64,000 bases of DNA from Chloroflexota bacterium. GTDB lineage: Bacteria; Chloroflexota; Anaerolineae; UBA4142. The notes below the pieces were generated by a model. That model worked only from the letters and a program-made list of their open reading frames with translations. It was not told the DNA's origin and did no database searches. Positions 38,734-64,000 of the stretch are shown here, piece after piece (position 1 is the stretch's first letter; every line of letters begins with the position of its first letter). The stretch is taken from NCBI GenBank assembly GCA_023381515.1, contig JAMCQI010000057.1, positions 1 to 64,000 on the forward strand, in the 5' to 3' direction. A program made the translations under genes and the position numbers.

Positions 38734-40035
38734 ATGTTGAGATCTGCAACCTTCACTATCGGCCTCGTGCTGGCGGGGCTTGCCTTCGTCGGCTTCCTGA
38801 TGCTCGGCGGCATGACGGCGCCACCGCCCTATTCGATCGTCGTCGCAGTGCAAGATATCCCGGCTTACACACTGCTCGACGCAGGCGCCCTCGGCGTGGA
38901 TGCCCAGCGCATCAACAGCCAGGTGGCGCATACCCTCGTCCAGCGTGAGGAAATCGATCAATTCGTCGGCGGCTTTGTGCTCGAGAACATTCACGCCGGC
39001 GAACCTCTACGCAAGGGAGCGATTGTTGCACCGGATAATCCGCAGGCCGCGTCGCGCCTCGCGCTCATGATGACAGACCCGGGCCGCGTCGCGATGGTAG
39101 TCCCCCTCGATGCGAAAACCGCACCGGGCCAGATCGCCCCCGGCGATTGGGTGGATCTCGTTCTCGGTCTTACGCCCGGCAACATCTCGGCGAGCAGCGG
39201 AACGACGTTTGGCAGCCTGCTCACACCCACGCCAGTTGCCCTTTCCTTTCCGCTGGGTCCTTCACTTCCAATAACGTCATCAGCGAAGGCAACTCCCCAA
39301 CCGCAACCGGTCCCCAATTTCTCATTCGGCACCGCAGTGACAACCACGGGAAGTGTCAGCGCGAGTGAAATGAATTTGCCGGTTGATAAGGTCGTGATCC
39401 AGAACATCCCCGTGGTTGGCGTGCGTTTTCAGCAGGTGCCCAATCCCGCCTTCACGGGTTCGGGGGGATCGCTGGGTCAAAGCGGATCAACTACAAGCTC
39501 CCCTCAGCCTGCCTACATTCAAGGCGACATCCAATCGGTCACGGTCCTCTTGCCGAGAGCAAGTGTCGAACTGGTGACCTTTGCAATGGACAACGGCCGC
39601 GTCCACGTTGCCCTGCTGCCCGCGCAGTCCGGGCAGGCGGCCAATGGCGCCCAGTCGCCTACTTTCGGCATCAGCTTCAATGATGTGCTCGCGTGGATGA
39701 TGCGCGAGCGTGCACTTTCTGCCAGCGGACAACCACCTGTAGCGCCAGCGCAAGCGACGCCAACGCAATCTGCTCCATCCGCTCCACAGACGCCTGTGGG
39801 CGGAGCGCCCACCCAGGTCGCGCCGGGTATACCGCCCGCGACGACACAACCAAATGCAACCGAAATGAGGCTGACGCCCGCTCCCAAGTCAACTCCTGCG
39901 CCCGCGACGATTGCGACCGGACTCGATTTCATGGCTCTCCTGATTCCGTTGAGCTGCGGAATTGTCCTGCTCGTCCTTTTCGTCGCGGTCGTCCGCTTTG
40001 TTCGGAAACGGAGGCGCGATGATGACGTCGTCTAG
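38734..40035 (+). CDS. CpaB/RcpC-like pilus assembly protein, first copy
   Basis: 433 residues with an N-terminal membrane segment and an SAF-type domain (SIVVAVQDIPAYTLLDAGAL, then GGFVLENIHAGEPLRKGAIV), followed by the RcpC/CpaB beta domain (VAMVVPLDAKTAPGQIAPGDWVDLVLG). A Pro/Thr/Ala-rich stretch and a C-terminal transmembrane segment with a basic tail (VRFVRKRRRD) complete it. CpaB helps assemble Tad pili at the cell surface. It begins immediately after the small gene upstream, with no gap. Confidence 0.85.
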   Translation: MLRSATFTIGLVLAGLAFVGFLMLGGMTAPPPYSIVVAVQDIPAYTLLDAGALGVDAQRINSQVAHTLVQREEIDQFVGGFVLENIHAGEPLRKGAIVAPDNPQAASRLALMMTDPGRVAMVVPLDAKTAPGQIAPGDWVDLVLGLTPGNISASSGTTFGSLLTPTPVALSFPLGPSLPITSSAKATPQPQPVPNFSFGTAVTTTGSVSASEMNLPVDKVVIQNIPVVGVRFQQVPNPAFTGSGGSLGQSGSTTSSPQPAYIQGDIQSVTVLLPRASVELVTFAMDNGRVHVALLPAQSGQAANGAQSPTFGISFNDVLAWMMRERALSASGQPPVAPAQATPTQSAPSAPQTPVGGAPTQVAPGIPPATTQPNATEMRLTPAPKSTPAPATIATGLDFMALLIPLSCGIVLLVLFVAVVRFVRKRRRDDDVV

Positions 40036-41449
40036 TCCATCCGCCAACGGATCTCAGTTCCCCGCACCCGAACGAAGCGGAGCCTTGAAGCTGCTCCTCG
40101 CCTTGCGCGAATGGGGCGATGTCCAGCAACTGAATGCCATGTTCGCCCCGGGCAATTCGAATGGGATCGAGATCGTCACATGGACGCAGGACGGCTCGCG
40201 CATTTTCGGCGACGCGACCGCGCTTGACGCCGACATCGTTCTCATTGACCCGACCTTGCCGGCCTTCGAGCCAAACGATATCCAGCGCCTGTATCACTTT
40301 GAACAGAAACCGGTCGTCACACTCGGCGCGATCCCGCCGCAAGGCGACTGGGGCTCGAAGTTGTACCAGCTCGGCATCAAGGGTCACGTCGATCTTCCTA
40401 TTGGGGAAGCCCAGGCGCGCGCGTTGGTGGCGATGTCGCACAAGGCGGTTCAGGATGCGTTGCGGGAACGGTCGTCCCCATCCTACATTCCGCAGGTCTC
40501 CACTCAAGTCGCGCAGGTGATCGCTACCCACGGCTGGGAAAAGAGCATGGTCGCGGTGTGGGGTGCGAAAGGTGGTGTTGGGAAAAGCACGGTCTCCGAG
40601 AATCTCGCCAGCATCCTGGGTGTCCTGGCAAACCGCAACACGGTCCTAGTCGATGCGAATATGGCAGGCGGGAATGCTCATATTCACCTGGGTTATTCGG
40701 AAGCGCAGATCCCGAAGAACATTGCGGCGCTCGCCCGCCGCTACCAAATGAATCTATCGACCTCCGCCTACCGGAATACGTCGAGCGTTGGGATCCTATC
40801 GGCGCAGCCGCTTCTTTCGCCGGCGGAAGTGCAGGGACATCTCACTCCCTTTCGCGGCAAGCTGGGAGTTTTGATCGGAATTCCGAAGCAACACATGGGC
40901 GGCGAGGAATACTTTCAAGGGGAACTAGGTCGCGGCTTCATGCACGAGCTGCTGAACGTGCTGCGCGGGATCGTCGATTTCGTCGTGATGGATCTGGGGC
41001 AGGACACGAATGCTGCCATTCACCTGCAGGCGCTGCGCGACGCCAACTATATCTTTGTCATCGTTAACCCCGACGCGGCCAGTGTGCGGGCCACGGGCGA
41101 AGTGATGGAGGATTTGTTCAAGCACGTTCAGCTCGACCCGAAGAAATTCCGCCTGGTTGTCAATCGCTTTCATCCCGAGCACGGCATACCGCGCAAGGAC
41201 ATTGTCCGGGCTTTGCAGATGCCGGAAGTCGGCATCGTGCCGGATGGAGGTCCCAAAGTGACGGCTTCGCTCAACCGCGGCGTGCCCCTCGTTCTCGATT
41301 CACGCGGCGAGATTGCCCGCAACCTGGTGGCGATAGCCTCCACGCTGTACCCGCCTGTCACGCAGGTATGGTCACATCGCAATCGATTGGGCGGTGAGAA
41401 GAATCCTGGTTTGGGAAAGAAGCTCGCCGAAATGGTCTTTGGAGCTTGA
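40019..41449 (+). CDS. CpaE/TadZ-like ATPase, first copy
   Basis: 476 residues: a receiver-like atypical N-terminal domain and a ParA/MinD-type ATPase with the deviant Walker A VWGAKGGVGKSTVSENLA, VLVDANMAGG, and FVVMDLGQDTN in the Walker B position. CpaE/TadZ places the pilus machine at the pole or membrane. Two adjacent ATGs (40019, 40022) follow GGAGGCGCG and overlap the CpaB stop; the first is given. Confidence 0.88.
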   Translation: MMTSSSPSANGSQFPAPERSGALKLLLALREWGDVQQLNAMFAPGNSNGIEIVTWTQDGSRIFGDATALDADIVLIDPTLPAFEPNDIQRLYHFEQKPVVTLGAIPPQGDWGSKLYQLGIKGHVDLPIGEAQARALVAMSHKAVQDALRERSSPSYIPQVSTQVAQVIATHGWEKSMVAVWGAKGGVGKSTVSENLASILGVLANRNTVLVDANMAGGNAHIHLGYSEAQIPKNIAALARRYQMNLSTSAYRNTSSVGILSAQPLLSPAEVQGHLTPFRGKLGVLIGIPKQHMGGEEYFQGELGRGFMHELLNVLRGIVDFVVMDLGQDTNAAIHLQALRDANYIFVIVNPDAASVRATGEVMEDLFKHVQLDPKKFRLVVNRFHPEHGIPRKDIVRALQMPEVGIVPDGGPKVTASLNRGVPLVLDSRGEIARNLVAIASTLYPPVTQVWSHRNRLGGEKNPGLGKKLAEMVFGA

Positions 41450-41493
41450 CGTTTCGCTTCATCTCGAAACGTCTCCTTGAAAAAGAGGAAAGA

Positions 41494-41916
41494 ATGGGAA
41501 TGGAACAGCCCTGTGAAGCCTGGTTCGACAACTTTTGGGCACGACGCGAAGGGAATCGGATCTGGATCGGCAAGTCATATGACCACCGAGCCAGCTACTC
41601 CGAGGCTACCCTGGTGCTTTGGTTGACCGAGGAAGGCGGGCTCACCGTCGATCCAAAATGGGCAAAGGTCCGCTCGTCGGAAACCGCGCATGAGCGCGCC
41701 TGGCTGGGAATGCTCCGGCGCTTGATGCTCCCGGTCACCCTTCAGTCCAAGCTCTTGGAACCACCTCCCTTTTGTCTCTTCTCAGAGGAGCCCGGGATGC
41801 TGGAATACCTGTACAGGATCGCGAAGGATGAGCTGCATTCGGCGCATCTCGATGAAGCGGAGAGGGACTTGCTCACCCAAGCCCTCACCGCCAATTTTCC
41901 GGAAGGCCGATCATGA
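41494..41916 (+). CDS. Hypothetical protein of the pilus operon (140 aa)
   Basis: Unrecognised soluble protein with many aromatic residues in its first third (EAWFDNFWARREGNRIWIGKSY) and an acidic C-terminal half. The start at 41494 follows AAAGAGGAAAG; the stop overlaps the CpaF gene by four bases. Possibly an accessory factor of the secretion ATPase, by position only. Confidence 0.65.
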   Translation: MGMEQPCEAWFDNFWARREGNRIWIGKSYDHRASYSEATLVLWLTEEGGLTVDPKWAKVRSSETAHERAWLGMLRRLMLPVTLQSKLLEPPPFCLFSEEPGMLEYLYRIAKDELHSAHLDEAERDLLTQALTANFPEGRS

Positions 41917-43298
41917 ACCGGGACGCGGCGACCAGACCGACCAGCGAACTGGCACAACTCGTCAGTGCGTCGCTCCGGCGTCCTGAGGCGGGCGAGAATC
42001 CGTACCGTGTCATTTTGCGGCAGGTCCGCCAGCGGCTGACCGCGACTTCTGACCCCTATGAACTCGCCCACCCGACTCCGGCAACCCGGATGAAGGTTGA
42101 GACACTCACGCGGCAGATCATCACAGACTATCGTCTGGCCCAGCCGGTGCAGGGCTTGCCCGTTCTCGACATCAGCGATGAAGAGGTCGTGCAGCGCGTC
42201 GTGAGTGACGTGCTCGGCTTCGGTCCTTTGGACAACCTCCTGCACGATGAAGCCGTCGAGGAAATTATCGTCAATGGAGTGGATATCTGGGTCATCGACG
42301 AAAGCGGCAAGCACCGTGCGCCGGGCAATGTGGGAGACCCGGAGAGCCTGGTCGAGTTGATCAATCGGCTGGTTGCGACCACCGGGCGCCAGGTCAACCT
42401 CTCGAATCCGATTCTGGACGCGCAACTACCGGACGGAAGCCGTCTCAATGCGACGATTTCCCCGGTCGCCACGCCCAGTCCCGCGATGACCATTCGACGC
42501 CATCGGCTCGTGGCCCGCCAGATGCAGGACTTGGTCGCGCTCGAATCGCTCACCGAATCAGCGGCCGCGTTCTTGGCTGCGGCAATTCAAGCGCGGTTGG
42601 GGATTTTGGTCGCCGGAGGGACGTCCAGCGGCAAGACCAATTTCCTGAATGTGCTCGCAGGGATTTTCCCAGAGAGCGAACGTGTGGTCGTGATCGAAGA
42701 CACGCGCGAATTGCAGCTCCCCATCGCCGACGTCGTGTACCAGAGCGTTCGCTATGCCAACGCCGAGGGAACAGGCGAAATCACGCAGCGGCGCCTTGTG
42801 CAGAATGCGCTCCGCATGCGCCCTGATCGCATTGTGATTGGAGAGGTGCGCGGTGCCGAGGCACTCGATATGCTGCTCGCCGCGAACACCGGGCATGAGG
42901 GATTCCTTTCGACCGTGCACGCGAATTCGGCGGGTCAGGCACTCACGCGTCTTATACAACTTACCAAGCTTGCTCCGGAGGGGAGCCAGATCGACGAAAA
43001 GACGGTTGCCGAATGGATTACGGAAGCTTTCCATCTCGTCGTCTTTCTCCGTCGCGATCCATTTTCGGGAAAAAGGCGGGTGGAGGAAATCATCGAACTC
43101 ACGGGCTCGGTCGAACAGGGCAACCGCATCCTGAACCAACCGATTTTCTCACAAGATGCCGATCGCCGGACACTCGTGCGGACACCCTACCCTCTCGCCC
43201 GAGCAGACAGACTCCGGGATCGCGGCGTAGACCCGACGGCTTTTGCGCCCATGCCGCGGGCAATGGGTGCTCCCGAATCCTGGGCGCGGAGGAGCTAG
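41913..43298 (+). CDS. CpaF/TadA-type secretion ATPase, first copy
   Basis: 461-residue hexameric ATPase that powers pilus extension. It has an N-terminal domain (VLGFGPLDNLLHDEAVEEIIVNG), Walker A VAGGTSSGKTNFLNVLAG, the Asp box VVVIEDTRELQLP, Walker B RPDRIVIGEVRGAEALDML and the His box GFLSTVHANSAG. All catalytic elements are present. ATGA overlap with the upstream gene; TadB follows after 24 bases. A C-terminal tail of about 40 residues is extra. Confidence 0.95.
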   Translation: MNRDAATRPTSELAQLVSASLRRPEAGENPYRVILRQVRQRLTATSDPYELAHPTPATRMKVETLTRQIITDYRLAQPVQGLPVLDISDEEVVQRVVSDVLGFGPLDNLLHDEAVEEIIVNGVDIWVIDESGKHRAPGNVGDPESLVELINRLVATTGRQVNLSNPILDAQLPDGSRLNATISPVATPSPAMTIRRHRLVARQMQDLVALESLTESAAAFLAAAIQARLGILVAGGTSSGKTNFLNVLAGIFPESERVVVIEDTRELQLPIADVVYQSVRYANAEGTGEITQRRLVQNALRMRPDRIVIGEVRGAEALDMLLAANTGHEGFLSTVHANSAGQALTRLIQLTKLAPEGSQIDEKTVAEWITEAFHLVVFLRRDPFSGKRRVEEIIELTGSVEQGNRILNQPIFSQDADRRTLVRTPYPLARADRLRDRGVDPTAFAPMPRAMGAPESWARRS

Positions 43299-43322
43299 AG
43301 ACGACATGGGTGGAGACGAATA

Positions 43323-44219
43323 ATGCTTTACGGTCCTAACGTTCTTCTCGCGTTCATCGGTGCGGCGGGCGTGCTCGTCATCGTCCTTTCCATCCTCGCG
43401 ATTCCGCATTACCGGATGGATCGCGAGGAGGACGAAGGGAGCCTCACCGTCCGCTTGCAGCGCAAGCTCGACCAGGCCGACCTCCAGATCACTGCAGCCG
43501 AATACTTGAAGACATCGCTCTTCCTTGCGCTCGTGCTCGGAGTGGTCGCCTTCATTCTCACCGATGCCATCGCGGCGGCTCTCCTCGGGATGCTGCTTGG
43601 ATTCTTTGGGTATTGGACGTATCTGGAGGACCGGCGGGAAAAACGCCGGCGCGAATACCAGGAGGCATTGCTCGAAGTGATCAACATTCTACAGGAAGGC
43701 TTTGCGTCCATGCGCAGTTTGGAGATGGCACTGGCTACGGTCGCCGAGCACGCGCCGGAAATTGCCCGGAGGGATTTCGTCGAGATTGTTACCCAGATGT
43801 CGCTCAAAGAACACCTCGAAGAGGTGCTCATGCAGATCGCCCAGCGCCGCCGCGACCTCATCTTCGATCGACTTGTGGAAGCGCTCATCGCCAATCGGCG
43901 CACCGGTGGGCAGCAATTGGGTCCCGTGCTTTCCGCTCTGAGGGAGAGCGTGCAGGCTCTCGCTTCGGGACGACGTCGAGTGGAGACCGCGCAGCAGCGC
44001 ATCCGCTGGGAGGCGCGCATCGTCTGCCTGGCTCCCTTTACCTTCATTGCGATTCTGCGGCAGACGGCACCCGACCTCCAGGCACCCTTCTATGCGAGCG
44101 TTTTCGGGCAAGTTGCCATCCTCCTCGTCGGCTGCATGTCGGCCCTAGCCTATTACATCATGAACCGCATGGGTTCACAGGCGGTCCAGCCACTCGAAAC
44201 CGCCGGGGTAAAGGCATGA
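43323..44219 (+). CDS. TadB-like pilus platform protein, first copy
   Basis: 298-residue integral membrane protein with one N-terminal span, a central pair (LFLALVLGVVAFILTDAIAAALLGMLLGFFGYW), the T2SSF/GspF cytoplasmic helical domain (YQEALLEVINILQEGFASMRSLEMALATVAEHAP) and two C-terminal spans. With TadC it forms the inner-membrane platform on which CpaF acts. Confidence 0.9.
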   Translation: MLYGPNVLLAFIGAAGVLVIVLSILAIPHYRMDREEDEGSLTVRLQRKLDQADLQITAAEYLKTSLFLALVLGVVAFILTDAIAAALLGMLLGFFGYWTYLEDRREKRRREYQEALLEVINILQEGFASMRSLEMALATVAEHAPEIARRDFVEIVTQMSLKEHLEEVLMQIAQRRRDLIFDRLVEALIANRRTGGQQLGPVLSALRESVQALASGRRRVETAQQRIRWEARIVCLAPFTFIAILRQTAPDLQAPFYASVFGQVAILLVGCMSALAYYIMNRMGSQAVQPLETAGVKA

Positions 44220-44280
44220 GGAATCTCATCTCATCTAGACACTGCAATAACACAACCTATGCCGCGAATGGGAGTAAGCG

Positions 44281-45180
44281 ATGAATCTCGTCCTTGCCCT
44301 GCTCGGAGCGCTCGGCGTACTGCTCGTCTGGACGGGAGTCACACACCCCTTTGCCGTTCGTGTTGCCAATTCAAGGAAACGGGTCCAGCTGACAGCGGGT
44401 GAAGAAGAGCATGTTCAGATCTCACCACTGCTCGACCGCTCGCTGGGTCCCATTCTCGAAAGCGCGAGTCATTTGCTGGTCGTCCTCTTGCGCCGGGAAG
44501 ACAAGGACCGCGAGTTGATCGCCGCCGCGGGTTACCCGCCGCGCTATCGCACGGTCTATAACTTGTACGCCTGGAAAGTCTTGATCGCGGTGATGCTCTT
44601 TCTCGTCGGGCTTTTCAATGCGCTGTTGATCGGACCCGGCTTTCTCGCCGTCGCACTCGGAATGGGCATCTTGGGACTCCATCTGCCCGACTTTCACTTG
44701 CGACAGTTGGTGAAGAAACGCCGTGAGCTCGTCCGCACGGAGATGGCGTTTGTGCTCCACCGGCTCGCGATCCAAGTGGCCGCGGGTCAAGCACTGCCGC
44801 AAGCGCTCGAGCAAATCGCTTTGAAACCGGGCGGCCCTTTTGTCAAGGAACTGCGCGAGGTGAGCAGCGATATTTCGACCGGACATTCGCTCAATGAAGC
44901 GCTCGACCGGCTGGCGGCCAGGACTGCCGGCATTGATGAGGTGCGGCGGTTCGTCAACCTCCTGCAGCGAGCGCAGCAGTTGGGCAGCCCGATTGCCGAA
45001 GCACTGACAAGCATGGGACGCATCCTGCAGGAACGCGTGCAGCAGGACATCGAGGCCCGCGGCATGGCGGCATCGGTGCAGATGGTGCTGCCAGTCGGAT
45101 GCCTGATCCTTCCTGCGATTGGATTGGTCGTCATCGGGCCCGGCATCTATCTCGCCGCTCAATACTTTTTCGTGCGCTAA
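44281..45180 (+). CDS. TadC-like pilus platform protein, first copy
   Basis: 299 residues with N-terminal spans, the helical T2SSF domain (EMAFVLHRLAIQVAAGQALPQALEQIALKPGG, then STGHSLNEALDRLAARTAGI) and a C-terminal hydrophobic pair. Partner of TadB; a 61-base gap separates them. The sequence differs clearly from the second TadC at 56.3 kb, so the two are not a recent duplication. Confidence 0.9.
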   Translation: MNLVLALLGALGVLLVWTGVTHPFAVRVANSRKRVQLTAGEEEHVQISPLLDRSLGPILESASHLLVVLLRREDKDRELIAAAGYPPRYRTVYNLYAWKVLIAVMLFLVGLFNALLIGPGFLAVALGMGILGLHLPDFHLRQLVKKRRELVRTEMAFVLHRLAIQVAAGQALPQALEQIALKPGGPFVKELREVSSDISTGHSLNEALDRLAARTAGIDEVRRFVNLLQRAQQLGSPIAEALTSMGRILQERVQQDIEARGMAASVQMVLPVGCLILPAIGLVVIGPGIYLAAQYFFVR

Positions 45181-45201
45181 CCATATCAAAGCACTCGTGC
45201 C

Positions 45202-45212
45202 AAGGAGGTGAT
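45202..45212 (+). promoter_or_regulatory. Perfect Shine-Dalgarno sequence without a start codon (upstream of pilin 1)
   Basis: AAGGAGGTGAT matches the 3' end of 16S rRNA over 11 bases, but no start codon stands at a usable distance; the pilin ATG is 97 bases further on and has its own GGAGG. A matching site precedes the second pilin cluster at 57193. It may be an mRNA-stabilising (STAB-SD) or standby site. Confidence 0.5.
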
Positions 45213-45308
45213 CGGGGCATCTACTCCCTGCACGAAAACGGGAAAGGTAAGGAGGGGCAGGCTGGCTCCCCACCAGTCTTCCCCTCATTCAAGACTCATG
45301 GAGGAACC

Positions 45309-45497
45309 ATGAACCATCTGCTGAACGCGTTCGACGCTGTTAAGCGGTTCCATGCATCGGAAGCGGGACAAGACATCTTGGAGTACGCGATCATCGTCGC
45401 GTTTGCGGTGACCGTCATCGCGGTCCTTGCCCTGCTCTACAACTCGATCAAAGGCGTGCTGACCAATGCCAACTCTCAACTGCAAGGCATTCATTAG
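45309..45497 (+). CDS. Flp-type prepilin, first copy
   Basis: 62-residue prepilin with a short basic leader and the type IVb cleavage motif: EAGQDILEYAIIVAFAVTVIA, with Glu at +5 and Tyr at +6 after the Gly. The peptidase at 57.7 kb would process it. The mature protein is one hydrophobic helix plus a short tail, the Flp/Tad major pilin pattern. GGAGGAACC precedes the ATG. Confidence 0.88.
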   Translation: MNHLLNAFDAVKRFHASEAGQDILEYAIIVAFAVTVIAVLALLYNSIKGVLTNANSQLQGIH

Positions 45498-45951
45498 GCG
45501 CAGTCGCCGTCTTGCCCGACGTACGGCGTTCGAGGTTGGCCGTTTCCATCGAGACAAAGACGGCCAAGACCTGGTCGAGTGGGCAGTCGGCCTGCCGGTA
45601 TTCCTCATTCTCTGCGCCGGAATCGTTTTTTACTCCTGGATGTGGTGGAACCAGGTTACCGCCGCTGCGGCGGTTCACGATGGCACGTATCTCGCGGCGA
45701 TGCGGGGCGGCGACACGGGCGCCGGATACACACGCACGCAACAGATGCTGCGATCATCGGTCGGAAATTTCGCAACTACTTACGGCATCTCGATCGGAGC
45801 CGATGCGAGCCGGCGCAGCATGATCGGCTCGGTCCAGAACCATTCTTTGTTTCGATTGCCCTTTCTGGGCGCACTGCCGCTGAACATTCAAGCACGCAGC
45901 TTTCAGAGACAGGAGCAGTTCTATGGCGGTCCACCGCAAGGGTGGTGGTGA
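45466..45951 (+). CDS. TadE-like pseudopilin
   Basis: 161 residues. A basic N-terminus precedes KDGQDLVEWAVGLPVFLILCAGIVFY, a prepilin-like motif (Gly, Glu at +5) joined to the membrane helix. The remainder is predicted to be outside the membrane (MLRSSVGNFATTYGISIG). TadE-family minor pilins are needed for assembly. It overlaps the pilin gene by 32 bases and the next pseudopilin by 29 bases; the long basic leader is unusual, so translation might start further in. Confidence 0.72.
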   Translation: MPTLNCKAFIRRSRRLARRTAFEVGRFHRDKDGQDLVEWAVGLPVFLILCAGIVFYSWMWWNQVTAAAAVHDGTYLAAMRGGDTGAGYTRTQQMLRSSVGNFATTYGISIGADASRRSMIGSVQNHSLFRLPFLGALPLNIQARSFQRQEQFYGGPPQGWW

Positions 45952-46369: not shown

Positions 46370-46444
46370 CTGACTCTGGATCAGTTAACCTGCGCACGGC
46401 AAGAAGAACGAAAGACCATACCCAATGAGGAGCTGAAGAGAACC

Positions 46445-56025: not shown

Positions 56026-56027
56026 CC

Positions 56028-56234: not shown

Positions 56235-56286
56235 CTATTTGCTTTCCAATTGAGTAGTAAGTCAATACGCTCCTCTCTGGTTTTCC

Positions 56287-56325: not shown

Positions 56326-56345
56326 GGAGGGATGAAGAAAACTCC

Positions 56346-57167
56346 ATGACTGAGACGATCATTCACACGATTCTCGTGAGCAGCGCCTTCAGCGCCGCGT
56401 TCTTCGGCCTCTACGCCGTTCTTCGTTCAGCCGGCGAGATGGTCGCGCATGTCGTCTATCTGCGCACGCCGGCATGGAAACGGTTCGCACGACGCGCGGA
56501 AGCGCCGTCTGGTCCGAGGGACTCGGTCGACGAATTGCCCTGGGAAACATGGCGGCTGGTCGCCGGAATTAGCGGGGTAATTGCACTGTTTTTCGCACTG
56601 TGGGGCACGGACTATATCTACCTCGCGGTCTTTGGGATTGCCGCGGCGTACATTCCCTCTTTTGTTCGCCGACAGATGAAGGAGAATGCGCGCTGGCGCC
56701 TGCGCCTCGAAGTGCGGGATTTCGTCGCCGAGCTGCGTTTGGCACTCGCGCTCAACGTGACGGTCTCGCAGGCTTTGGAACATCTTACCCAGCGTTCAAG
56801 GGAGACTAACACGCCCTTTGCCGAACGAATCGCTCACCATGTCGAACGGACTTTGCGGATGGAGGGACCCGAAAAGATGCTCGAAGCATTGGCGGAGGAG
56901 TTCGACTCGGAGGACCTGCGCAAGCTCCTCGTGCTTTTGCGGGCTGCGCTCCGCGGCGGAATGTCACTCGCCGAAGCGCTTTCCGAAAGCGCGGATTCTA
57001 TCGCGCAGAACATCCTCGCGAGCGCCGAGCTCTCCATTGAGGAAATGCCGACGCGTCTCATTCTGCCAATGCTGTTCGCGCTGTTCCCCACCATCATGGT
57101 ACTCGCCCTGATCCCGGCCGTGAGCCTCCTCGTCACATCGCTCTCGGGAGTGCCCACGTCGCCGTAG
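56346..57167 (+). CDS. TadC-like platform protein, second copy
   Basis: 273 residues: an N-terminal span (IIHTILVSSAFSAAFFGLYAVL), a membrane pair near 80-115 (LVAGISGVIALFFALWG), the helical T2SSF domain (DFVAELRLALALNVTVSQALEHLTQRS, GMSLAEALSESADSIAQNIL) and a C-terminal hydrophobic hairpin. Together with TadB2 and CpaF2 it makes a second platform. Confidence 0.85.
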   Translation: MTETIIHTILVSSAFSAAFFGLYAVLRSAGEMVAHVVYLRTPAWKRFARRAEAPSGPRDSVDELPWETWRLVAGISGVIALFFALWGTDYIYLAVFGIAAAYIPSFVRRQMKENARWRLRLEVRDFVAELRLALALNVTVSQALEHLTQRSRETNTPFAERIAHHVERTLRMEGPEKMLEALAEEFDSEDLRKLLVLLRAALRGGMSLAEALSESADSIAQNILASAELSIEEMPTRLILPMLFALFPTIMVLALIPAVSLLVTSLSGVPTSP

Positions 57168-57192
57168 GCCTGGCGAGATTATCGGTCGCGCT

Positions 57193-57204
57193 AAAGGAGG
57201 TGAT
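57193..57204 (+). promoter_or_regulatory. Perfect Shine-Dalgarno sequence without a start codon (upstream of pilin 2)
   Basis: AAAGGAGGTGAT, 112 bases before the next pilin ATG, mirrors the site at 45202. Only trivial frames (e.g. TTG-CAG-GAA-ATG-stop) follow at usable distance. Confidence 0.5.
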
Positions 57205-57315
57205 GTCTATTGCAGGAAATGTAGTGGTCTGAAGTGCAAGCATTCCGGCAAGTCAGGTGCAATCGATCGAGCAGGAGGAGCAGTCCTCCCAATCATTCCA
57301 GACAAGGAGAAAGAA

Positions 57316-57504
57316 ATGCACGCCCTGCGCAAGTTTCATTCAGATGAACGCGGCACGGAAATGGTCGAATTCGTAGTCGGGGCCACGCTGATCATCGCCA
57401 TAATGATGCTCATCATGGTGAGTTTGTGGAATACGACCCACGAACGCGCGGCCGCGACGAACACCATCATCACGGACAACGTTCCGACTGCCGCCCAGCC
57501 GTAG
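57316..57504 (+). CDS. Small pilin-like protein (62 aa)
   Basis: 62 residues with DERGTEMVEFVVGATLIIAIMMLIMVS: Gly then Glu at +5 and Phe at +6, a TadE/Flp-type prepilin motif, followed by a short polar tail. AAGGAGAAAGA precedes the ATG. Confidence 0.8.
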   Translation: MHALRKFHSDERGTEMVEFVVGATLIIAIMMLIMVSLWNTTHERAAATNTIITDNVPTAAQP

Positions 57505-57565
57505 AGCATTGACTGCGGGATGGCTCAAGCACGAGAGCCATCCCATCTCCGATCAAGGAGCAAGA

Positions 57566-57724
57566 ATGAACTCTATCCGAACCTTTTGGCGTGAAGAGAG
57601 CGGCCTCGAAACCATGGAGTACATCGTGCTGGCGACATTGGTCGCAGCGCTGCTGACGCTTTCCGTGGTCGCCCTCTTCAACACTATCGCCGACAAGATC
57701 AAGGCCATCAACGGCAGCCTGTAG
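57566..57724 (+). CDS. Flp-type prepilin, second copy
   Basis: 52 residues. Leader MNSIRTFWREESG, then LETMEYIVLATLVAALLTLSVVALF: Glu at +5 and Tyr at +6, the classical Flp signature, and a short tail. AAGGAGCAAG precedes the ATG at 57566. Sequence differs from the first Flp, so the element can build two kinds of filament. Confidence 0.9.
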   Translation: MNSIRTFWREESGLETMEYIVLATLVAALLTLSVVALFNTIADKIKAINGSL

Positions 57725-57738
57725 GAGAGGAGAATTCC

Positions 57739-58314
57739 ATGAGACGAATCCTGACGCTTGTGTGCAAGGTCGCCATCCTTTTGGGGCTGGTCGCGCTCGC
57801 ATTAGTCCTTGTTTTCCCAGCCTGGTCCTCCGTCCCAATCTGGATACCGATGGTCGGGATGGACGCACTCTTTTTCGGTATCGCGGTCAAGGACTTGCAG
57901 GAGGAGCGCATCCCCAATCTCGTCACCTACCCGCTGATGTTCGCCGGGGTGGTGCGTGCCTACATCCTGCAGGACGCGACCTTTCTGTTGTTCTGGTTCA
58001 TGCTCTGGCTCGCGTGGGAGACTCACCTGATGGGAGCGGGAGACGCCAAGCTCCTCATGGGACTCTTCGCGTTATGGCCCGACATGCAGCTTGCCTACGT
58101 CGTCACGGCATCCATTCTCATCACCGGCATCCCTTATCTCATCTTCAAGTATCGCCGACAGTGGCGTGTCGCTCTCCGAGGATTGGGTTGGAGGCTTTTC
58201 ACTTTGAGGCTCCTTCCTAGCCCGGCCGAGTTTCAGAGTGAAGCGGTCCCGTACGCCTTTTCTTTCTGTCTCGCCGGAGGCATCTACCTCTGGCTTCGAC
58301 TGGGAATGGCGTGA
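57739..58314 (+). CDS. Prepilin peptidase, A24 (TadV/CpaA) type
   Basis: 191-residue polytopic aspartyl protease. The two catalytic Asp are in KDLQEERIPN and in MGAGDAKLLMG (the GxGD motif). It cleaves the leader of Flp and TadE-like precursors at the cytoplasmic face of the membrane. It is the only prepilin peptidase in the window and must serve both pilin sets. Overlaps the following gene by four bases. Confidence 0.92.
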   Translation: MRRILTLVCKVAILLGLVALALVLVFPAWSSVPIWIPMVGMDALFFGIAVKDLQEERIPNLVTYPLMFAGVVRAYILQDATFLLFWFMLWLAWETHLMGAGDAKLLMGLFALWPDMQLAYVVTASILITGIPYLIFKYRRQWRVALRGLGWRLFTLRLLPSPAEFQSEAVPYAFSFCLAGGIYLWLRLGMA

Positions 58315-59609
58315 ACATGCGAACGCTCATGCGCCTGATCACCATTGTCATCGCTCTTTTGGTCCTGCTCATTGCCAGTACTACGACCGTACCTGCAGCA
58401 CCTTTCAACGCGCCCAATGCGCAGTGGGCATGGCAATTGCACTACGCCGACGAGTTCAATGCATCCGGCGACCTCTCCGGCTGGGCGATTGCTCGCGGGG
58501 GCGGCAACTACTGGATCGACACAGGCGGTGGATTCCTGCACATGGAATCGGGCTGGGCCGATACGTACCCGATGATCTGGCGCAACGACCTCTACAACTA
58601 TATCAATACCTACAACCTTGACTACGCGGTGGAGGTCCGCTTTCGCCGCCCCTATCTCACGGCGTACGGAGCAGCCTTCGGCGTGGGCACGACCGCTTTC
58701 AGCGGAGCGCGCTATTGGGTGACGGATTCGTATCCGGTCAACAACTACGAGAACATCATGCACAACGAGCAGCACCAACCCGCATCGCCTGGAGCGTTTG
58801 GCGGAAATGCCAATGTGTACCAGGGTGGTGCCGGACGCGTCCCCATCCCGGTGGACTACACCTGGCACACGATGCGCGCTGAGTTCATCGGAGGTACCGG
58901 GTCACTGTACTTCGACGGAGTCTACTACTCCGGCGCGAATCCCTGGCGATCTTGGAGGCCGGTCTCGACCTATTTAGGAGACTCGTACAACCAGAGCTGG
59001 GGGGATGGAGGACCGGGTTCGTGGACGAATGAAGATATTGACTATATCCGCATCTACATCCGCGTGCTTTCGGTAACACCGACGTTTACGCCCACGGCCA
59101 CGAGGACGTCGACACCAACGCCGACGTTCACTCCAACTCGGACCGCGACGCCAACCTACACACCCACACCAACCAATACGGCCACACCGACCCGGACGGC
59201 GACACCGACGTTTACGCCGACTCCGACGAGCACTCCGACGCCGACGTTCACGCCAACGCCAGTTCCGACTCTCACACTGACAGCTGACTACGGGTACCTG
59301 CTGATGTGCGGGGCGATCCTGGGCGAGCCAACCCAGGTGCTGCGCGGAGTCCTAACCGGTGGCAGCGTCGGCGGACAGATGATTCGCGTGCAGATCACAG
59401 ATTCGAATGGCAGCGTCTCGAACTATTTTGTCTTTACCGACAACGCCGGCCGCTTCACACTCGATGCTTCGAACGTGCCCGGCGATCTGTGCTTTGGCTC
59501 GTCTGTGACTGGCACATGGTCGGCGCAAGCGTATTACGACGTCCTGGGCCTCTCAAGCAATACCGTTCAATGGAGCGTCTCTTGGTACATCATCCATACC
59601 ACGCGCTGA
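58311..59609 (+). CDS. Secreted lectin-like protein with TPT-repeat linker
   Basis: 432 residues. After a signal peptide, residues about 35-250 look like a concanavalin-type beta sandwich (DEFNASGDLSGWAIARGGGNYWI, VDYTWHTMRAEFIGG, NEDIDYIRIYIRV). A Thr/Pro linker of about 70 residues built from TPTxTPT repeats (bases about 59080-59285) leads to a C-terminal beta domain (LRGVLTGGSVGGQMIRVQI). The linker type is typical of Chloroflexota exported proteins. Likely an adhesin or pilus-associated surface protein, by context. Confidence 0.72.
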   Translation: MNMRTLMRLITIVIALLVLLIASTTTVPAAPFNAPNAQWAWQLHYADEFNASGDLSGWAIARGGGNYWIDTGGGFLHMESGWADTYPMIWRNDLYNYINTYNLDYAVEVRFRRPYLTAYGAAFGVGTTAFSGARYWVTDSYPVNNYENIMHNEQHQPASPGAFGGNANVYQGGAGRVPIPVDYTWHTMRAEFIGGTGSLYFDGVYYSGANPWRSWRPVSTYLGDSYNQSWGDGGPGSWTNEDIDYIRIYIRVLSVTPTFTPTATRTSTPTPTFTPTRTATPTYTPTPTNTATPTRTATPTFTPTPTSTPTPTFTPTPVPTLTLTADYGYLLMCGAILGEPTQVLRGVLTGGSVGGQMIRVQITDSNGSVSNYFVFTDNAGRFTLDASNVPGDLCFGSSVTGTWSAQAYYDVLGLSSNTVQWSVSWYIIHTTR

Positions 59610-59640
59610 GATGCATCGGAGAAGGAAGACGAAGGACTGA

Positions 59641-60061
59641 TTGTCTACGGCTACAAGTTCCGACCCTTCACCCAGTTTTATCGGAGCGCGGTGCCGTTTC
59701 GGTCGAGATGGTCTTTTTCCTCCTCATCTTCGCGATCACTTTTTTCGGTGCCATTGAGATGGCGCGGGAAATCGCGGTGAAACACGCCCTTGACGTGGGG
59801 ACCTATCGCGCGGCTCGCTATCTGTCTCTCGTGCCCACCGATTCGGCAACGGCGAGAACCATGATCCAGAACGAACTGGACGCCAATGTCCTCGGCGGTG
59901 CGGGCTCGGTTCAGATGTCGGTGGATATGCCAAGCCAATCGTTTCAAGCCATTTTCAGCGTCACGGCGCAGGTGTCCTATCAGCCCGCAGTGCCCTTTAT
60001 CATCTTCGCGCCCAAGGTGTTGAGCGTAACGCATTCGCAGAGCATTGAGGAATACCCGTGA
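59641..60061 (+). CDS. TadE-like pseudopilin with probable frameshift near its start
   Basis: The body is clear: SERGAVSVEMVFFLLIFAITFFGAIEMAREIAVKHALDVG, a TadE motif with Glu at +5, and about 120 residues in total to the stop at 60061. No start codon in that frame precedes the motif. A TTG at 59641, after GGAGAAGGAAG, opens the neighbouring frame; deleting one T from the TTTT run at 59676-59679 would join the two as MSTATSSDPSPSLSERGAVS. Either a sequencing/assembly error, a real frameshift or ribosomal slippage explains this. Confidence 0.65.
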
Positions 60062-60663
60062 TGACGCGCACCCGCTTGTCTCAAATGCAACCTTCCAGCT
60101 TTGATCGCCTGGCTCACCTATGGGCGGCGCTCGGTCGCTGGGATCAGGAACTCGCCCAACACGGCGAAGATACGGCTCAGCTCGCTTCCAGGTTGGCCGC
60201 AGTTCTCGGGTTAGCGCAGCCCATTCCCTGGGCTTTGTGCTGGGCCGGCCGTCTCCACGACATCGGCAAAGTCGCCGTGCCCCGCAAGCTCCTGGAGAAA
60301 CAAGGCCCCCTCAGCGAAGAGGAACAGCGAGTCGTGCGCCTGCACCCGGGTCATTCGTTCACGATCCTTCAGCGGACGGGAATCTCTTCCGAGTTCCTGA
60401 ACACGGTCCTATTTCATCACGAACGATTTGATGGCTCCGGTTATCCCATCGGACTCAAGAGGGAGGACATCCCATTCGCTGCGCGCATTGTCGCAGTAGC
60501 GGACGTTTACTGCGCGTTGACGCGGCGCCGTCCCTATCGCGATCGCTACAGCGCCGAAGCCGCCTGGGCTCTTGTGGTACGCAACAGGGCCAGAGCCTTT
60601 GATCCTGTCATCGTAGATGCTCTAGAGGAGGTATTGAAACATGATGCGACGAGCGAGGGATGA
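60061..60663 (+). CDS. HD-GYP domain protein
   Basis: About 200 residues, almost all HD-GYP: HDIGKVAVPRKLLEK (metal-binding HD), LHPGHSFTILQRT, then VLFHHERFDGSGYP, the expanded GYP signature, and ARIVAVADVYCALTRRRPYR. Such proteins hydrolyse cyclic-di-GMP (or act as its sensors). It lies inside the pilus operon, so it could tie piliation or transfer to the second messenger. A GTG directly before the ATG (60058) is an alternative start. Confidence 0.88.
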   Translation: MTRTRLSQMQPSSFDRLAHLWAALGRWDQELAQHGEDTAQLASRLAAVLGLAQPIPWALCWAGRLHDIGKVAVPRKLLEKQGPLSEEEQRVVRLHPGHSFTILQRTGISSEFLNTVLFHHERFDGSGYPIGLKREDIPFAARIVAVADVYCALTRRRPYRDRYSAEAAWALVVRNRARAFDPVIVDALEEVLKHDATSEG

Positions 60664-61159
60664 ACGTGGAAGCGCAGCTGTTGCCGGTCTTTTGTTTACC
60701 CTGATCCTCCTGGTTCTTGCAGCAGCCATCGTCGATGTCTACCGCATCCAGGACGTGAGAACTTTTGCCTATTCGGCGGCGAACGATGCCGCGCTGCGTG
60801 GAGCAAGCCTCGGGCGCGATTGGGACCGCTTCACGGCCACAGGCGAAATGTATCTCGATCCCTACGCCGCGAACGATGCGGCTCAGACCGCCTTGGAGCA
60901 GATCATGCATGCTCGCGGCATCACCAATTTCCAGTATGTCGTCGGCGTCATGCCTAATCCAGGCGGAGGCACCTTTACGCTCCCGGCACCCTGTTTACCG
61001 CGCGCGAGTTTCTGGAACACGACCACTTGGACAGAAACCGAACCGGCGGTGGGAGTCTGCACCGTCGTCACCGTGCCAACCATTCTGTTCGGACTTGTCA
61101 ATGGCAACCAGCCCATTGCCGTCAATGCCTTCGCAGCTGCAGGAGTAGCGCATCAATGA
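60641..61159 (+). CDS. TadG-like pseudopilin
   Basis: 172 residues with DERGSAAVAGLLFTLILLVLAAAIVDVYR, a pilin-like hydrophobic helix after a basic leader, and RTFAYSAANDAALRGASLG typical of TadG/TadE proteins. The cleavage-motif Glu is missing (Ala). It overlaps the HD-GYP gene by 23 bases and the next gene by four. Confidence 0.72.
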   Translation: MMRRARDERGSAAVAGLLFTLILLVLAAAIVDVYRIQDVRTFAYSAANDAALRGASLGRDWDRFTATGEMYLDPYAANDAAQTALEQIMHARGITNFQYVVGVMPNPGGGTFTLPAPCLPRASFWNTTTWTETEPAVGVCTVVTVPTILFGLVNGNQPIAVNAFAAAGVAHQ

Positions 61160-61932
61160 ACCCATCGCTGAAGATCGGCCAGTCTGCTTCATTTCTAGCA
61201 CTCGTCATCGCACTTGCCTTCGCACTCTCCAGTTGTGGGATCAGCGAACTCCTCCCAGGCAGCGGCGGGATTCAGCGCGGCACTGCGACGCCCATGATTC
61301 GCCCGACGTTTACGCCGCGGCCGACCAATACCGCCTGGCCAACGTTCACACCCGTTCCGACCTTGGCTCCGGTGACTCTTGTTGCACCCACACTGCCGGG
61401 AGTGATCACGGGAGTGATCTCGAGCACAGTGAATCTGCGCGCCGGACCGGGAACCAACTATCCCGTTCAGACTCGTCTTTCGAAGGGGACGAAAGTCAAG
61501 TTCCGGGGGCGGGACCTCGAGAGCGCATGGCTGATGCTCGTTCCGCCTCCTAATGGATGGATCAAGGCGGACTATGTCGCACTCGCCAGCGATATCGAGA
61601 GTTTGCCAGTCGTTGAGGCGCCGCCCACTCCCATTCCCACGGCAACGATCGCACCTTCGCCGACCGCCATGCCTACGGCGACGCCGCCGATGTACGTCGA
61701 TTTTCGCGTGGATGCACCCTACCTTCCCGCGGGAGGCTGCACCACGGCTCGATGGGACGTCGAAGGCGTCCGCGGGGTGTACTTTGAGGGCCAAGGTCAG
61801 CCGGGGCACGGTTCAGCTGACATCTGCCCGAAGGAAACCCATACCTTCGTGCTGCACGTCGTGTTGAATTCAGGTTATCTCGACCGGGCGATCACCGTCA
61901 CCGTCCTGCTGGTTCCGACTCCCAAGCCATGA
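61156..61932 (+). CDS. SH3b-domain lipoprotein
   Basis: 258 residues: signal peptide with a lipobox (FALSSCG), a TPRPTNTAWPTFTP-type linker, a bacterial SH3 domain (ISSTVNLRAGPGTNYPVQTRLSKGTKVKFRGRD), a second Pro/Thr linker, and a C-terminal beta domain (YLPAGGCTTARWDVEGVRGVYF). SH3b domains bind peptidoglycan or surface polymers. In a transfer operon it may anchor the pilus or channel to the wall. Confidence 0.85.
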   Translation: MNPSLKIGQSASFLALVIALAFALSSCGISELLPGSGGIQRGTATPMIRPTFTPRPTNTAWPTFTPVPTLAPVTLVAPTLPGVITGVISSTVNLRAGPGTNYPVQTRLSKGTKVKFRGRDLESAWLMLVPPPNGWIKADYVALASDIESLPVVEAPPTPIPTATIAPSPTAMPTATPPMYVDFRVDAPYLPAGGCTTARWDVEGVRGVYFEGQGQPGHGSADICPKETHTFVLHVVLNSGYLDRAITVTVLLVPTPKP

Positions 61933-62330
61933 GGCGTCCCATGTGGAAACCGATCCTTACCTTAACACTCGTTCCGCTGTTTCTCGTCGGCGCACAGCCC
62001 ATCAGCGTCGATGCGAGAACGGTCGTCCCGTTTGCCGCTCAGATCGCCATCGAGCGGGACTATTTGGAGTGGGTCCACTTGCCGCGCTGGACAGGCGATT
62101 GCGTGGACACGCCCGTTGTCGGTATCACGTGGCTTGAGCCGGAAGGTGTTGTGGGAAAGCGCCCGGTACTGTGGTTGAAGGAGCGGGCGACTGGCCGCTA
62201 TGGAGCCATTCTCGGGCTAACGGAATCCCGCCTGCGGTCGCTCGGGCTGAGCGTGCCCGCTGAACCAGTGATCATCTTGCCTCAAGTCACCATCTATCGC
62301 CTGTGCCGTCCCTGGTCAGCAGGCTACTGA
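61929..62330 (+). CDS. Exported hypothetical protein (133 aa)
   Basis: A signal peptide or membrane anchor (ILTLTLVPLFLVGAQPISVDA) followed by a compact domain with two Cys (GDCVDTPV and YRLCRPW), possibly a disulfide. Not recognised. ATGA overlap with the lipoprotein gene upstream. Confidence 0.65.
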   Translation: MRRPMWKPILTLTLVPLFLVGAQPISVDARTVVPFAAQIAIERDYLEWVHLPRWTGDCVDTPVVGITWLEPEGVVGKRPVLWLKERATGRYGAILGLTESRLRSLGLSVPAEPVIILPQVTIYRLCRPWSAGY

Positions 62331-62351
62331 AGGAACGCGAGGAGAAATCGA

Positions 62352-62636
62352 TTGCTCATCAATGCAATTTGGCTGAGTGCTCTCCCATTGCTCGACCCTT
62401 TTGCCGAGCTGCGCGGTGTCATCAGCGAGATTCTCACGATCATCATTCAGGTGACGGCCGTGCTACTCGCGCTCGCCATCGCCACCGGGTTCCTCGAAGC
62501 ACAGGCAGGGTTTGTTCTCGGCGCGCCGTCCCTTTTGAGTGCGCTCTGGTTCAAGATCGGCGCCGTCATTCTGTGTCTCATGGTCGCCCTCATGGCGGTT
62601 TCCATTTCGAATACCCTCGTAGGCATTCTCTTCTAG
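62352..62636 (+). CDS. VirB2/TrbC-like small membrane protein
   Basis: 94 residues, TTG start after AGGAGA. Two or three hydrophobic segments (LTIIIQVTAVLLALAIATGFL and FKIGAVILCLMVALMAVSIS). Size, topology and position before a VirB6-like gene resemble conjugative pilin or VirB2/VirB3-type subunits, but sequence alone is not decisive. Confidence 0.5.
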   Translation: MLINAIWLSALPLLDPFAELRGVISEILTIIIQVTAVLLALAIATGFLEAQAGFVLGAPSLLSALWFKIGAVILCLMVALMAVSISNTLVGILF

Positions 62637-62645
62637 GAGGTAAAC

Positions 62646-63035
62646 GTGAAGCTGCTCCAATTCATCAATCGTCCGAGCGTGCGTGCCCGCATTATCGGCG
62701 TGTTGGGCGCACTGCTCCTCGTCGCCGCAAATCAAGCCGTCGCCTATGCAGCGGATAGCAGTATGGGGGATGCCATTGCCAATCTCGCCAAGATGCTGAT
62801 CGACGGGATCATCGCGCTCGCCGCCATCCTGCTCGCCGTGGGCATCGCCACGAATTTTGTGACGGGGATGGTCGAAGTGATGGTCGGGAGACCCAATGGG
62901 CTGTCCTCTACCTGGATGCGGCTCGCGGGTGTGGTGATCTGTTTCCTCGGCGCCATTTTCACGATCACCATTGCCAATACCATCATCGACACGCTCAAGG
63001 CGTACAAGAGCACGGGCGGAATTGATCTGCCTTAG
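62646..63035 (+). CDS. VirB2/TrbC-like small membrane protein with signal peptide
   Basis: 129 residues, GTG start after AGGAGGTAAAC. A cleavable signal (IGVLGALLLVAANQAVAYAADSS) followed by two membrane spans (LIDGIIALAAILLAVGIATNF and LAGVVICFLGAIFTITIANTI), the VirB2/TrbC pilin layout. It is similar in pattern to the preceding protein. Confidence 0.55.
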   Translation: MKLLQFINRPSVRARIIGVLGALLLVAANQAVAYAADSSMGDAIANLAKMLIDGIIALAAILLAVGIATNFVTGMVEVMVGRPNGLSSTWMRLAGVVICFLGAIFTITIANTIIDTLKAYKSTGGIDLP

Positions 63036-63044
63036 GAACATGAC

Positions 63045-64000
63045 ATGGCTGACCTTCGCGTCTTGAAAATCGTCGGGCTCGCAATCATCCTGTTTCTGAC
63101 GATCTCGCTCCTTGTGCCGGCTCGCGCCGCGTCCGCACAGCCGCCAATCGCGCCGCCGATGCAGACACCCACGCCTGAGCCGAATCCGATCACGCAGATT
63201 ATCAATCAAATCATCCAGTTCCCCTTCGAGAATCTCACGCAGGCACTCCAAAACGCGCTGCAGTCAATTCTCACGAACTCGGTGGCCCCGCTCGAAAGCA
63301 TCTTCTCCGCCTCCATCGGGCGCTGGCTCACCTCCAGCCCCGGCATTGTCACACCGGGCGGAGGAATCGCGAACGGGGGCGACGTGATGGGACCTGCCTG
63401 GCGCCTGATGATCAAGATCGCCGTGCTCTTGTGGCCACTCACTTTGGCGATCATTGCAGCCATTGCGGCCAAAGATGCGGTCGCGGCTGCGTCGTGGGGA
63501 ATTGGGGATCTCAAAGAGGCTCTGGGCGGATGGCTCATTGCCGTCGTCGCGAGCGCGACGAGTCTCTACTGGATGGACCTCGCAAACCGCTTTACTAACG
63601 GAACGACGATGGCGATTCTGAATATGAGTTTCACTGGGGAAGCGGGCTTTCAGCCCAATGCGCTCACAGGGCTCGTGTTTGGAACGGCCGGGCTTTTGCT
63701 GGCCCAGTTTGCCCCGCCCGCCTCGCTCTTCATCGTCATCTTTGTGATTCTTCTGGGACTTGCCGTGCTCACCGCTCTCATCTTTCAGTTCATGGCGCGC
63801 TTTGTGGTGCTCTATGTGCTCGTCGCGCTTGCGCCTGTCGTCATGATCCTGGGTGTTCTGCCGCCCATGCGCTGGTTCAGCTACACCTGGCTGCGCGGCT
63901 TTGTCCTGGTGGAAGCCGTTGGACCCATCAACGCGCTCCTCTTGAAGCTCGTCATGATTCTCACCGTGCGCGGTAATTCGAATGATCCCATTACTGCCTT
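63045..64000 (+). CDS. VirB6/TrbL-like channel protein, 3' end beyond the window
   Basis: At least 318 residues, truncated by the window edge. Signal segment (LAIILFLTISLLVPARAASAQ), a hydrophilic stretch, then at least five membrane spans, including LLWPLTLAIIAAIAAKDAVAAASW and ARFVVLYVLVALAPVVMILGVLP, close in pattern to the TrbL/VirB6 region 'R-x-L-L-x-L-L-APl'. VirB6/TrbL forms the inner-membrane channel of type IV secretion. ATG at 63045 follows TTAGGAAC. Confidence 0.75.
   Translation, partial: MADLRVLKIVGLAIILFLTISLLVPARAASAQPPIAPPMQTPTPEPNPITQIINQIIQFPFENLTQALQNALQSILTNSVAPLESIFSASIGRWLTSSPGIVTPGGGIANGGDVMGPAWRLMIKIAVLLWPLTLAIIAAIAAKDAVAAASWGIGDLKEALGGWLIAVVASATSLYWMDLANRFTNGTTMAILNMSFTGEAGFQPNALTGLVFGTAGLLLAQFAPPASLFIVIFVILLGLAVLTALIFQFMARFVVLYVLVALAPVVMILGVLPPMRWFSYTWLRGFVLVEAVGPINALLLKLVMILTVRGNSNDPITA

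Follow-up and report, generated by a model that had tools for sequence, protein, structure and literature searches.

Known systems that combine Tad and type IV secretion genes

Genes for tight adherence (Tad) pili are already known to accompany genes of type IV secretion systems (T4SSs), as seen on plasmids of Sulfobacillus, Cutibacterium acnes, Streptomyces and Embleya, and Candidatus Chlorohelix allophototropha. Here, we analyze a gene run of this kind in an uncultured Chloroflexota bacterium (Anaerolineae; UBA4142), lying in positions 1–64,000 of contig JAMCQI010000057.1 (GCA_023381515.1), a stretch of 64,000 nucleotides hereafter called the window. Judged from its sequence, the region is probably an operon for transfer and replication of an integrative and conjugative element (ICE) or an integrated conjugative plasmid, whose Tad machinery would build mating pili. 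The preliminary description of this DNA had proposed a new conjugation architecture. This is not supported, as Tad with VirB4 is in print for Sulfobacillus and C. acnes, and the same set is annotated on Streptomyces and Embleya plasmids. New in this case are the Chloroflexota family, its doubled Tad set that encloses replication genes, and evidence of co-inheritance and one-sided placement.

For Sulfobacillus plasmids, PMC6803676 describes a conjugation system with homologues of both T4SS and type II secretion proteins, including TadA and TadB/TadC-like proteins, and cites Deane and Rawlings 2011 for pL15 and pY0017 of Sulfobacillus thermotolerans. As in the element described here, pL15 carries a TadA-like ATPase gene and a type II secretion F (TadB-type) gene ~20 kb upstream of a VirB4-type gene on one strand, with genes for the relaxase, coupling protein, TrbL and transglycosylase between or after the TadA and VirB4-type genes. 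By comparison, these Bacillota plasmids contain one Tad set and a MOBP relaxase, and are typed MPF_T by MOB-suite.

The Streptomyces/Embleya linear plasmids NZ_CP108445 and NZ_CP108778 share a block of a VirB4-type ATPase, a coupling-type protein, a PF13814 protein, SAF/CpaB, TadA, two type II secretion F genes, TadE and TadG, and their relaxase and VirB6 align in profiles with the element's families. On the Streptomyces plasmid, VirB4 (AAA_10, 6e-40) and the PF13814 protein (9e-23) were confirmed; the coupling-type protein has no Pfam match of its own kind and matches, by tblastn, the coupling protein of the window's nearest relative, G001. Among the matches listed, five accessions are common to the 20 for the coupling protein and the 40 for TadA. 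These plasmids differ from the element in their single Tad set, which follows the T4SS genes and has no replication genes annotated within it. Both NZ_CP108445.1 and NZ_CP108778.1 are typed non-mobilizable by MOB-suite despite carrying the coupling-type and PF13814 proteins.

In C. acnes linear plasmids, the tad locus likewise adjoins VirB4 and TcpC-like genes. These plasmids instead encode an FtsK-domain, TraB-like translocase, no VirD4-type protein being mentioned in the excerpts of PMC5696575, whose authors were unable to decide if a link exists between Flp pili and transfer apparatus. The circular Chlorohelix plasmid NZ_CP128402 has PrgI, NlpC/P60, CpaB, a TadA-type ATPase, two type II secretion F genes and TadE/G in a row, whereas its VirB4-like gene lies ~41 kb away on the other strand and an FtsK-type protein is present. 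The IncI plasmid R64 differs in its type IV pilus subclass, its T4SS and its relaxase. It is alike in being a conjugative plasmid that encodes a type IV pilus, needed for liquid mating (PMC12102498); the same source describes Gram-positive conjugative T4SSs as devoid of pilin genes and reliant on adhesins. By titles and the starts of abstracts, a search of the open-licence PMC literature yielded no publication that describes a conjugative element of Chloroflexota carrying Tad genes, and the excerpted text of a Streptomyces ICE paper (PMC9513070) does not mention Tad.

Continuation of the gene run in a close relative

Starting at 38125, the plus-strand run is still open where the window ends at 64000, and up to that point it encodes two Tad sets, Flp-like pilin candidates, TadE-type pilins, a prepilin peptidase, a replication initiator and loader, a VirB2-like pair and the start of a VirB6-like gene (Table 1). 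Compared genomes are labelled G001, G002 and so on, and contigs C57, C59 and so on; some genomes bear two labels (G002 = G019, G004 = G024, G005 = G028, G009 = G011 and probably G003 = G017), and none is counted twice. In G001, the run extends ~15 kb beyond the window end, and the joined composite of window and G001 comprises 43 open reading frames (ORFs) over 40.8 kb, 94.5% coding with a largest gap of 583 bp, which bears out the almost gapless double-Tad operon first described. Comparison across genomes found the same gene order elsewhere, and a chance origin of the combination is therefore dismissed.

Contig G001:C57 aligns with window positions 41579–56091 at 92.7% and with 56346–64000 at 99.6% identity. 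Rightward, it encodes in order the VirB6-like protein, a weakly GDSL-like exported protein, a VirB4 N-terminal-like protein, VirB4, an M23 peptidase, the coupling protein, the PF13814-type protein, ParB and DnaB. VirB4 is thus split; its main part matches PF12846 (1e-11, over the cut-off) and the CD1110 conjugal ATPase family (6e-64, under the cut-off), and the 230-aa protein before it gives weak matches to TrsD (2e-5) and the VirB4 N-terminal region (5e-5). The profile matches to TrsD and CD1110 are the observations that bear on membership of the MPF_FATA class of T4SS. The coupling protein matches PF10412 (3e-11, over the cut-off) and the CD1115 VirD4 family (2e-8, under the cut-off). Since near-identical DNA in G001:C57 continues through VirB4, a VirD4-type coupling protein and a relaxase-family protein, the main prediction of the preliminary description, which placed these three to the right, holds in the nearest relative. 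A search also suggests that the window's own contig (137,543 bases) probably carries VirB4 and the relaxase, 100% and 93% identical to those of G001; a further match of likewise unattributed source, P0081 (55%), is on a 40-kb contig. G001:C57 also has a 1.7-kb insert (14513–16221) between TadB2 and TadC2, with a TnpB/Cas12f-like protein (weak, under the cut-off), which the window lacks.

The VirB2-like pair and the VirB6/TrbL-like channel of the preliminary description are present as ORFs of fitting topology, whereas family matches are weak or absent for the VirB2-like proteins and for VirB6 of G001. The two VirB2-like proteins are hydrophobic paralogues for which NCBIfam yields nothing relevant, and both adjoin VirB6 in all eight first-ring loci that have VirB6. 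The VirB6-like family profile aligns with an Embleya plasmid protein over 254 columns (probability 95%) and weakly with a Pontibacillus protein (probability 26%); the 858-aa G001 relative has no Pfam or NCBIfam match. A Pontibacillus pilin-like protein, tried against the VirB2-like profile, did not match. In addition, the VirB8-like candidate has an NTF2-like fold, which is common; its best rows are plastid division proteins, and the best Foldseek E value is 0.002.

Candidate relaxase of the MOBC type

In the restriction-endonuclease type of relaxase (MOBC; PMC11104534), PF13814 is the family that CONJscan recognizes as MobC (PMC5357655). The 691-aa protein encoded next to the coupling gene of G001 is a candidate of this type, since PF13814 is carried by 67 of its 89 homologues in precomputed annotation, as counted by eye. 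The residues E494, D546, E563 and K577 (P0069 numbering) are invariant in all 66 aligned members of the family, and we take them to form a PD-(D/E)XK site. Furthermore, the family aligns with the Streptomyces plasmid PF13814 protein (9e-23) over 235 columns (probability 91%). A structure model of the candidate reached a predicted local distance difference test score (pLDDT) of 87.8; a sequence search of the PDB with the family profile gave a best E of 0.16. The classical relaxase families PF03432 and PF08751, the MOB families searched, each had matches in none of the seven carrier genomes.

Association of Tad with VirB4 across genomes

Tad-family proteins lie on the same contig stretch as VirB4 in nine of 12 loci, G001 included; the other three stretches measure 3.6, 4.3 and 17.9 kb. 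Elements of the same type in two genomes share TadA1 at 85% and VirB4 at 91% identity, while two element types within one genome share them at 45% and 64%. In this test case, Tad is inherited with VirB4 and not with the host.

A phylum-wide survey of 400 Chloroflexota genomes, 106 of which have VirB4, revealed a one-sided arrangement. TadA lies upstream, on the same strand and within 40 kb of VirB4 in at least 23 of at least 147 VirB4 matches, and in any other arrangement within 40 kb in two of the 147, among the TadA matches listed. The VirB4 total is a lower bound, as at most three candidates were scored per genome, and a few of the matches are two halves of one gene. The pairing of Tad with T4SS genes is a recurrent module in Chloroflexota. 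On an Acidobacteria metagenome-assembled genome contig (L024, 2317–5084), a VirB4 of the same family adjoins a CpaB2-like gene, which suggests spread beyond this phylum.

Likely integration site and mobility

The preliminary description placed the locus within a serine-recombinase element. A large serine recombinase is indeed found at the likely attachment site, its reading frame extending into the 3' terminus of the chromosomal gene DUF1684, whereas the right end of the element is not seen, since neither the window nor G001:C57 yielded a second DUF1684 3' copy (attR). The left flank keeps the chromosomal order dnaE, epimerase, DUF1684, which is also found in G013. Extra copies of the DUF1684 3' end (aa 136–172) number four in G001 and one in G017, and two of those in G001 adjoin recombinase-like C-terminal sequence, as in the window. 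Within 13.5 kb of G001:C59, three such copies (689–838, 4204–4335 and 6338–6466) suggest an accretion array, with elements stacked at a single integration hot spot. Near the G009_C357 locus there is also a distant serine recombinase (24%).

The distribution of the element is patchy and multi-copy. The VirB4 family (E 1e-120) occurs in six of 79 relatives with up to four matches per genome, one of the four being partial. Together with the recombinase at the likely site, this bears indirectly on a fixed chromosomal locus devoid of a recombinase, the contrary outcome that the preliminary description had named.

A proposed transfer mechanism and its alternatives

On these observations, a conjugative and integrative element is the most likely reading, with the Tad pilus most likely serving as its mating filament. 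We infer its excision, its transfer and a mating function for the pilus as follows. The XRE/M78 pair would control the operon, and the serine recombinase would excise the element from the DUF1684 3' end. The MOBC-type relaxase may then nick a transfer origin, the coupling protein handing the strand to a channel of VirB6, split VirB4, VirB2-like and VirB8-like proteins, while the M23 hydrolase would breach the cell wall. Replication and maintenance of the circle would fall to the initiator, loader, DnaB and ParB. Finally, the Tad machinery would build Flp pili that join donor and recipient, a task for which other systems use adhesins or VirB pili. A stronger version, possible if rather doubtful, makes Tad an integral and obligatory part of a distinct mating-pair class in Chloroflexota, Actinomycetota and some Bacillota; TadA would act as the VirB11 of the system, the run showing no other candidate for it, and, within a single mating apparatus, the double set would power either a pair of filaments or both extension and retraction.

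Several points weigh against conjugation by Tad-built pili. The window itself contains no VirB4, coupling protein or relaxase, these being seen in G001, and the VirB2-, VirB6- and VirB8-like calls derive from topology, position or a common fold. The relaxase candidate of G001 scores 24.2 against a Pfam cut-off of 25.3, and PF13814 is found on just four of its 19 closest homologues, again counted by eye. Fold searches with its model match mainly the first winged-helix domain; the matches are mainly MarR-type winged helices, and no nuclease-like domains are listed, which does not exclude them. An origin of transfer (oriT) was not found, and two short stretches by the G001 relaxase and coupling genes have no inverted repeats. 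With the right end and attR unseen, the recombinase could belong to a smaller neighboring element. Co-inheritance of Tad and VirB4 derives from two genomes. In the phylum survey, 124 of the 147 VirB4 matches have no TadA upstream on the same strand within 40 kb, among the TadA matches listed, in part because contigs end; of 20 second-ring stretches, 13 yielded no Tad family, though TadA lies 32–40 kb upstream in five or more of these 13.

The VirB4 matches without Tad within 40 kb, many among those listed, imply that the channel may work without Tad, and the pili of a conjugative element could then be cargo for host attachment, biofilm formation or surface sensing instead of a mating machine. 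Tad pili are best known for these very functions (PMC13170226), and the link between Flp pili and transfer was left undecided for C. acnes (PMC5696575). We nevertheless consider cargo unlikely: the T4SS-like and Tad genes form one strand run with the VirB8-like candidate inside a Tad set, Tad and VirB4 are inherited together in the single test case, and plasmids of Actinomycetota and Bacillota show the pairing again. Decay or domestication of the element, or a T4SS serving protein delivery, is a very unlikely explanation. G001 does carry the TnpB-like insert between TadB2 and TadC2, the relaxase gene of G002 is split into two frames and one VirB4 match of G017 contains a stop, but no broken frame was noticed in the window and the composite run has the high coding density given above. 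Least probable of all is a competence-like or Ced-like system that imports DNA. The tad locus required for transformation of Micrococcus luteus (cited in PMC5696575) offers a precedent, whereas the relaxase-family gene beside a VirD4-type coupling gene, the partition and replication genes, and the patchy multi-copy spread fit an outgoing element.

If Tad pili are indeed the mating filaments in Chloroflexota and in Streptomyces-type linear plasmids, the view of Gram-positive conjugation as pilin-free would change, and the presence of coupling-type and PF13814 proteins on two plasmids typed non-mobilizable would be explained. Such a system would also offer an experimentally accessible path for gene transfer in a phylum of which most members are uncultured, and its actinobacterial relatives are culturable.

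Gene content of the window

Table 1. Features of the likely integration site, regulators and gene run in the window, with the evidence for each.
Feature	Position	Strand	Evidence
DUF1684 chromosomal gene, 3' end the likely attachment site	26040–26558	+	PF07920 2.6e-45
Large serine recombinase, likely integrase	26437–28272	-	Resolvase 7e-14, Recombinase 5e-16, Zn_ribbon_recom 1e-7
M78-type (IrrE-like) metallopeptidase, likely element regulator	36712–37305	-	PF06114 4e-10
XRE/Cro-type helix-turn-helix protein	37254–37646	-	HTH_3 2e-14
First gene of run	38125–38733	+	Conserved in related elements; true start may lie further in
CpaB1/RcpC	38734–40035	+	PF08666 (SAF) 5e-6; PF16976 (RcpC) 1.4e-6, just under its cut-off
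CpaE1/TadZ ATPase	39962–41449	+	PF01656 (CbiA) 2e-9
Unknown small protein	41446–41916	+	No Pfam match
TadA1/CpaF secretion ATPase	41913–43298	+	PF00437 (T2SSE) 5e-44; TIGR03819 1e-79, under cut-off
TadB1	43323–44219	+	PF00482 weak, 0.001; 3 membrane segments
TadC1	44281–45180	+	PF00482 7e-18
Flp-like pilin candidate 1	45309–45497 (listed ORF 45099–45497)	+	Prepilin-like segment; no Flp match in Pfam
TadE-like pseudopilin a	45466–45951	+	PF07811 3e-9
TadE-like pseudopilin b	45923–46369	+	PF07811 2e-12
TadE/G-like pseudopilin c	47344–47895	+	PF07811 3e-7
Membrane-anchored NTF2-like protein inside Tad set, VirB8-like candidate	47892–48665	+	NTF2-like fold
Conserved exported-looking protein	48655–49836	+	No Pfam or PHROG match; kept in related loci
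CpaE2	49848–50897	+	Weak P-loop matches (0.006); family present in G002 and G003
CpaB2	50855–51664	+	PF16976 (RcpC) weak, 0.002
Replication initiator (O-like)	51707–53260	+	phrog_678 3e-10
DnaC-like helicase loader	53257–54006	+	phrog_50 2e-18
TadA2/CpaF ATPase	54003–55142	+	PF00437 3e-24
TadB2	55120–56025	+	No Pfam match; position, membrane segments; 42-column profile match to TadB1, probability 80%
TadC2	56250–57167	+	PF00482 4e-7
Flp-like pilin candidate 2	57316–57504	+	Prepilin motif and hydrophobic segment
Flp-like pilin candidate 3	57509–57724	+	Prepilin-like segment; Flp_Fap 0.014, under cut-off
Prepilin peptidase	57739–58314	+	PF01478 4e-10; single copy
Exported-looking protein, phrog_15511-like	58311–59609	+	phrog_15511 5e-8
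TadE-like pseudopilin d	59306–60061	+	PF07811 7e-4, under cut-off; start uncertain
HD-domain (HD_5) protein	60058–60663	+	PF13487 1.5e-34
TadE/G-like protein e	60641–61159	+	PF13400 0.006, under cut-off
SH3-domain exported-looking protein	61027–61932	+	PF08239 3.5e-7; true start probably near 61156
Exported-looking protein	61929–62330	+	Signal-like N terminus; no match; differs from VirB2-like pair
VirB2-like membrane protein a	62352–62636	+	Topology; paralogue of b; no relevant Pfam match
VirB2-like membrane protein b	62646–63035	+	Topology; TrbC/VirB2 PF04956 0.07, under cut-off, not best match
VirB6-like channel protein	63045–64000 (cut by window end)	+	Membrane segments; profile match to Embleya plasmid protein

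The first Tad set is well supported by Pfam except for TadB1; in the second, TadB2, CpaE2 and CpaB2 are weak or lean on order and conservation. With the calls for these four proteins being the weaker ones, the two copies each of CpaB, CpaE, CpaF, TadB and TadC reported in the preliminary description are found again, as are the single prepilin peptidase and the replication initiator and loader inside the operon. TIGR03819, matched by TadA1, bears the name 'TadA family conjugal transfer-associated ATPase'. Flp-like pilin candidates are present as described, but size and motif give three, with approximate bounds, instead of two, the third having the sole, weak Pfam match. Similarly, TadE/TadG-like proteins are there, though Pfam supports five, two of them under the cut-off, where about six pseudopilins had been counted. 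No secretin, a component of diderm Tad systems only, was found among the operon proteins, to which the scan was applied.

The XRE/M78 pair adjoins the operon, and its relatives are likewise placed in G009_C357 and G003_C3; the XRE/Cro-type protein is presumably ImmR-like. A 38-bp repeat (82%) at 31647–31684 and 37697–37734, which flanks the CBASS and XRE/M78 genes, is possibly the operator of the XRE protein. The former genes form a Type III cyclic oligonucleotide-based antiphage signaling system (CBASS)-like defence operon (31803–36375) that encodes an AAA protein, which we take to be TRIP13-like, a bacterial HORMA protein, a SMODS nucleotidyltransferase and a SAVED protein fused to a phosphorylase (PNP_UDP) domain. 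Imperfect direct repeats at 29507–29574 and 31381–31447 flank a major facilitator superfamily (MFS) transporter gene and are perhaps traces of a separate insertion. In G001:C57 (39000–67500), past the transfer operon, minus-strand genes encode a TIR/response-regulator protein, a histidine kinase, a bacteriophage exclusion (BREX) system (BrxL, PglZ and methylase) and UvrD/PD-(D/E)XK helicase-nucleases.

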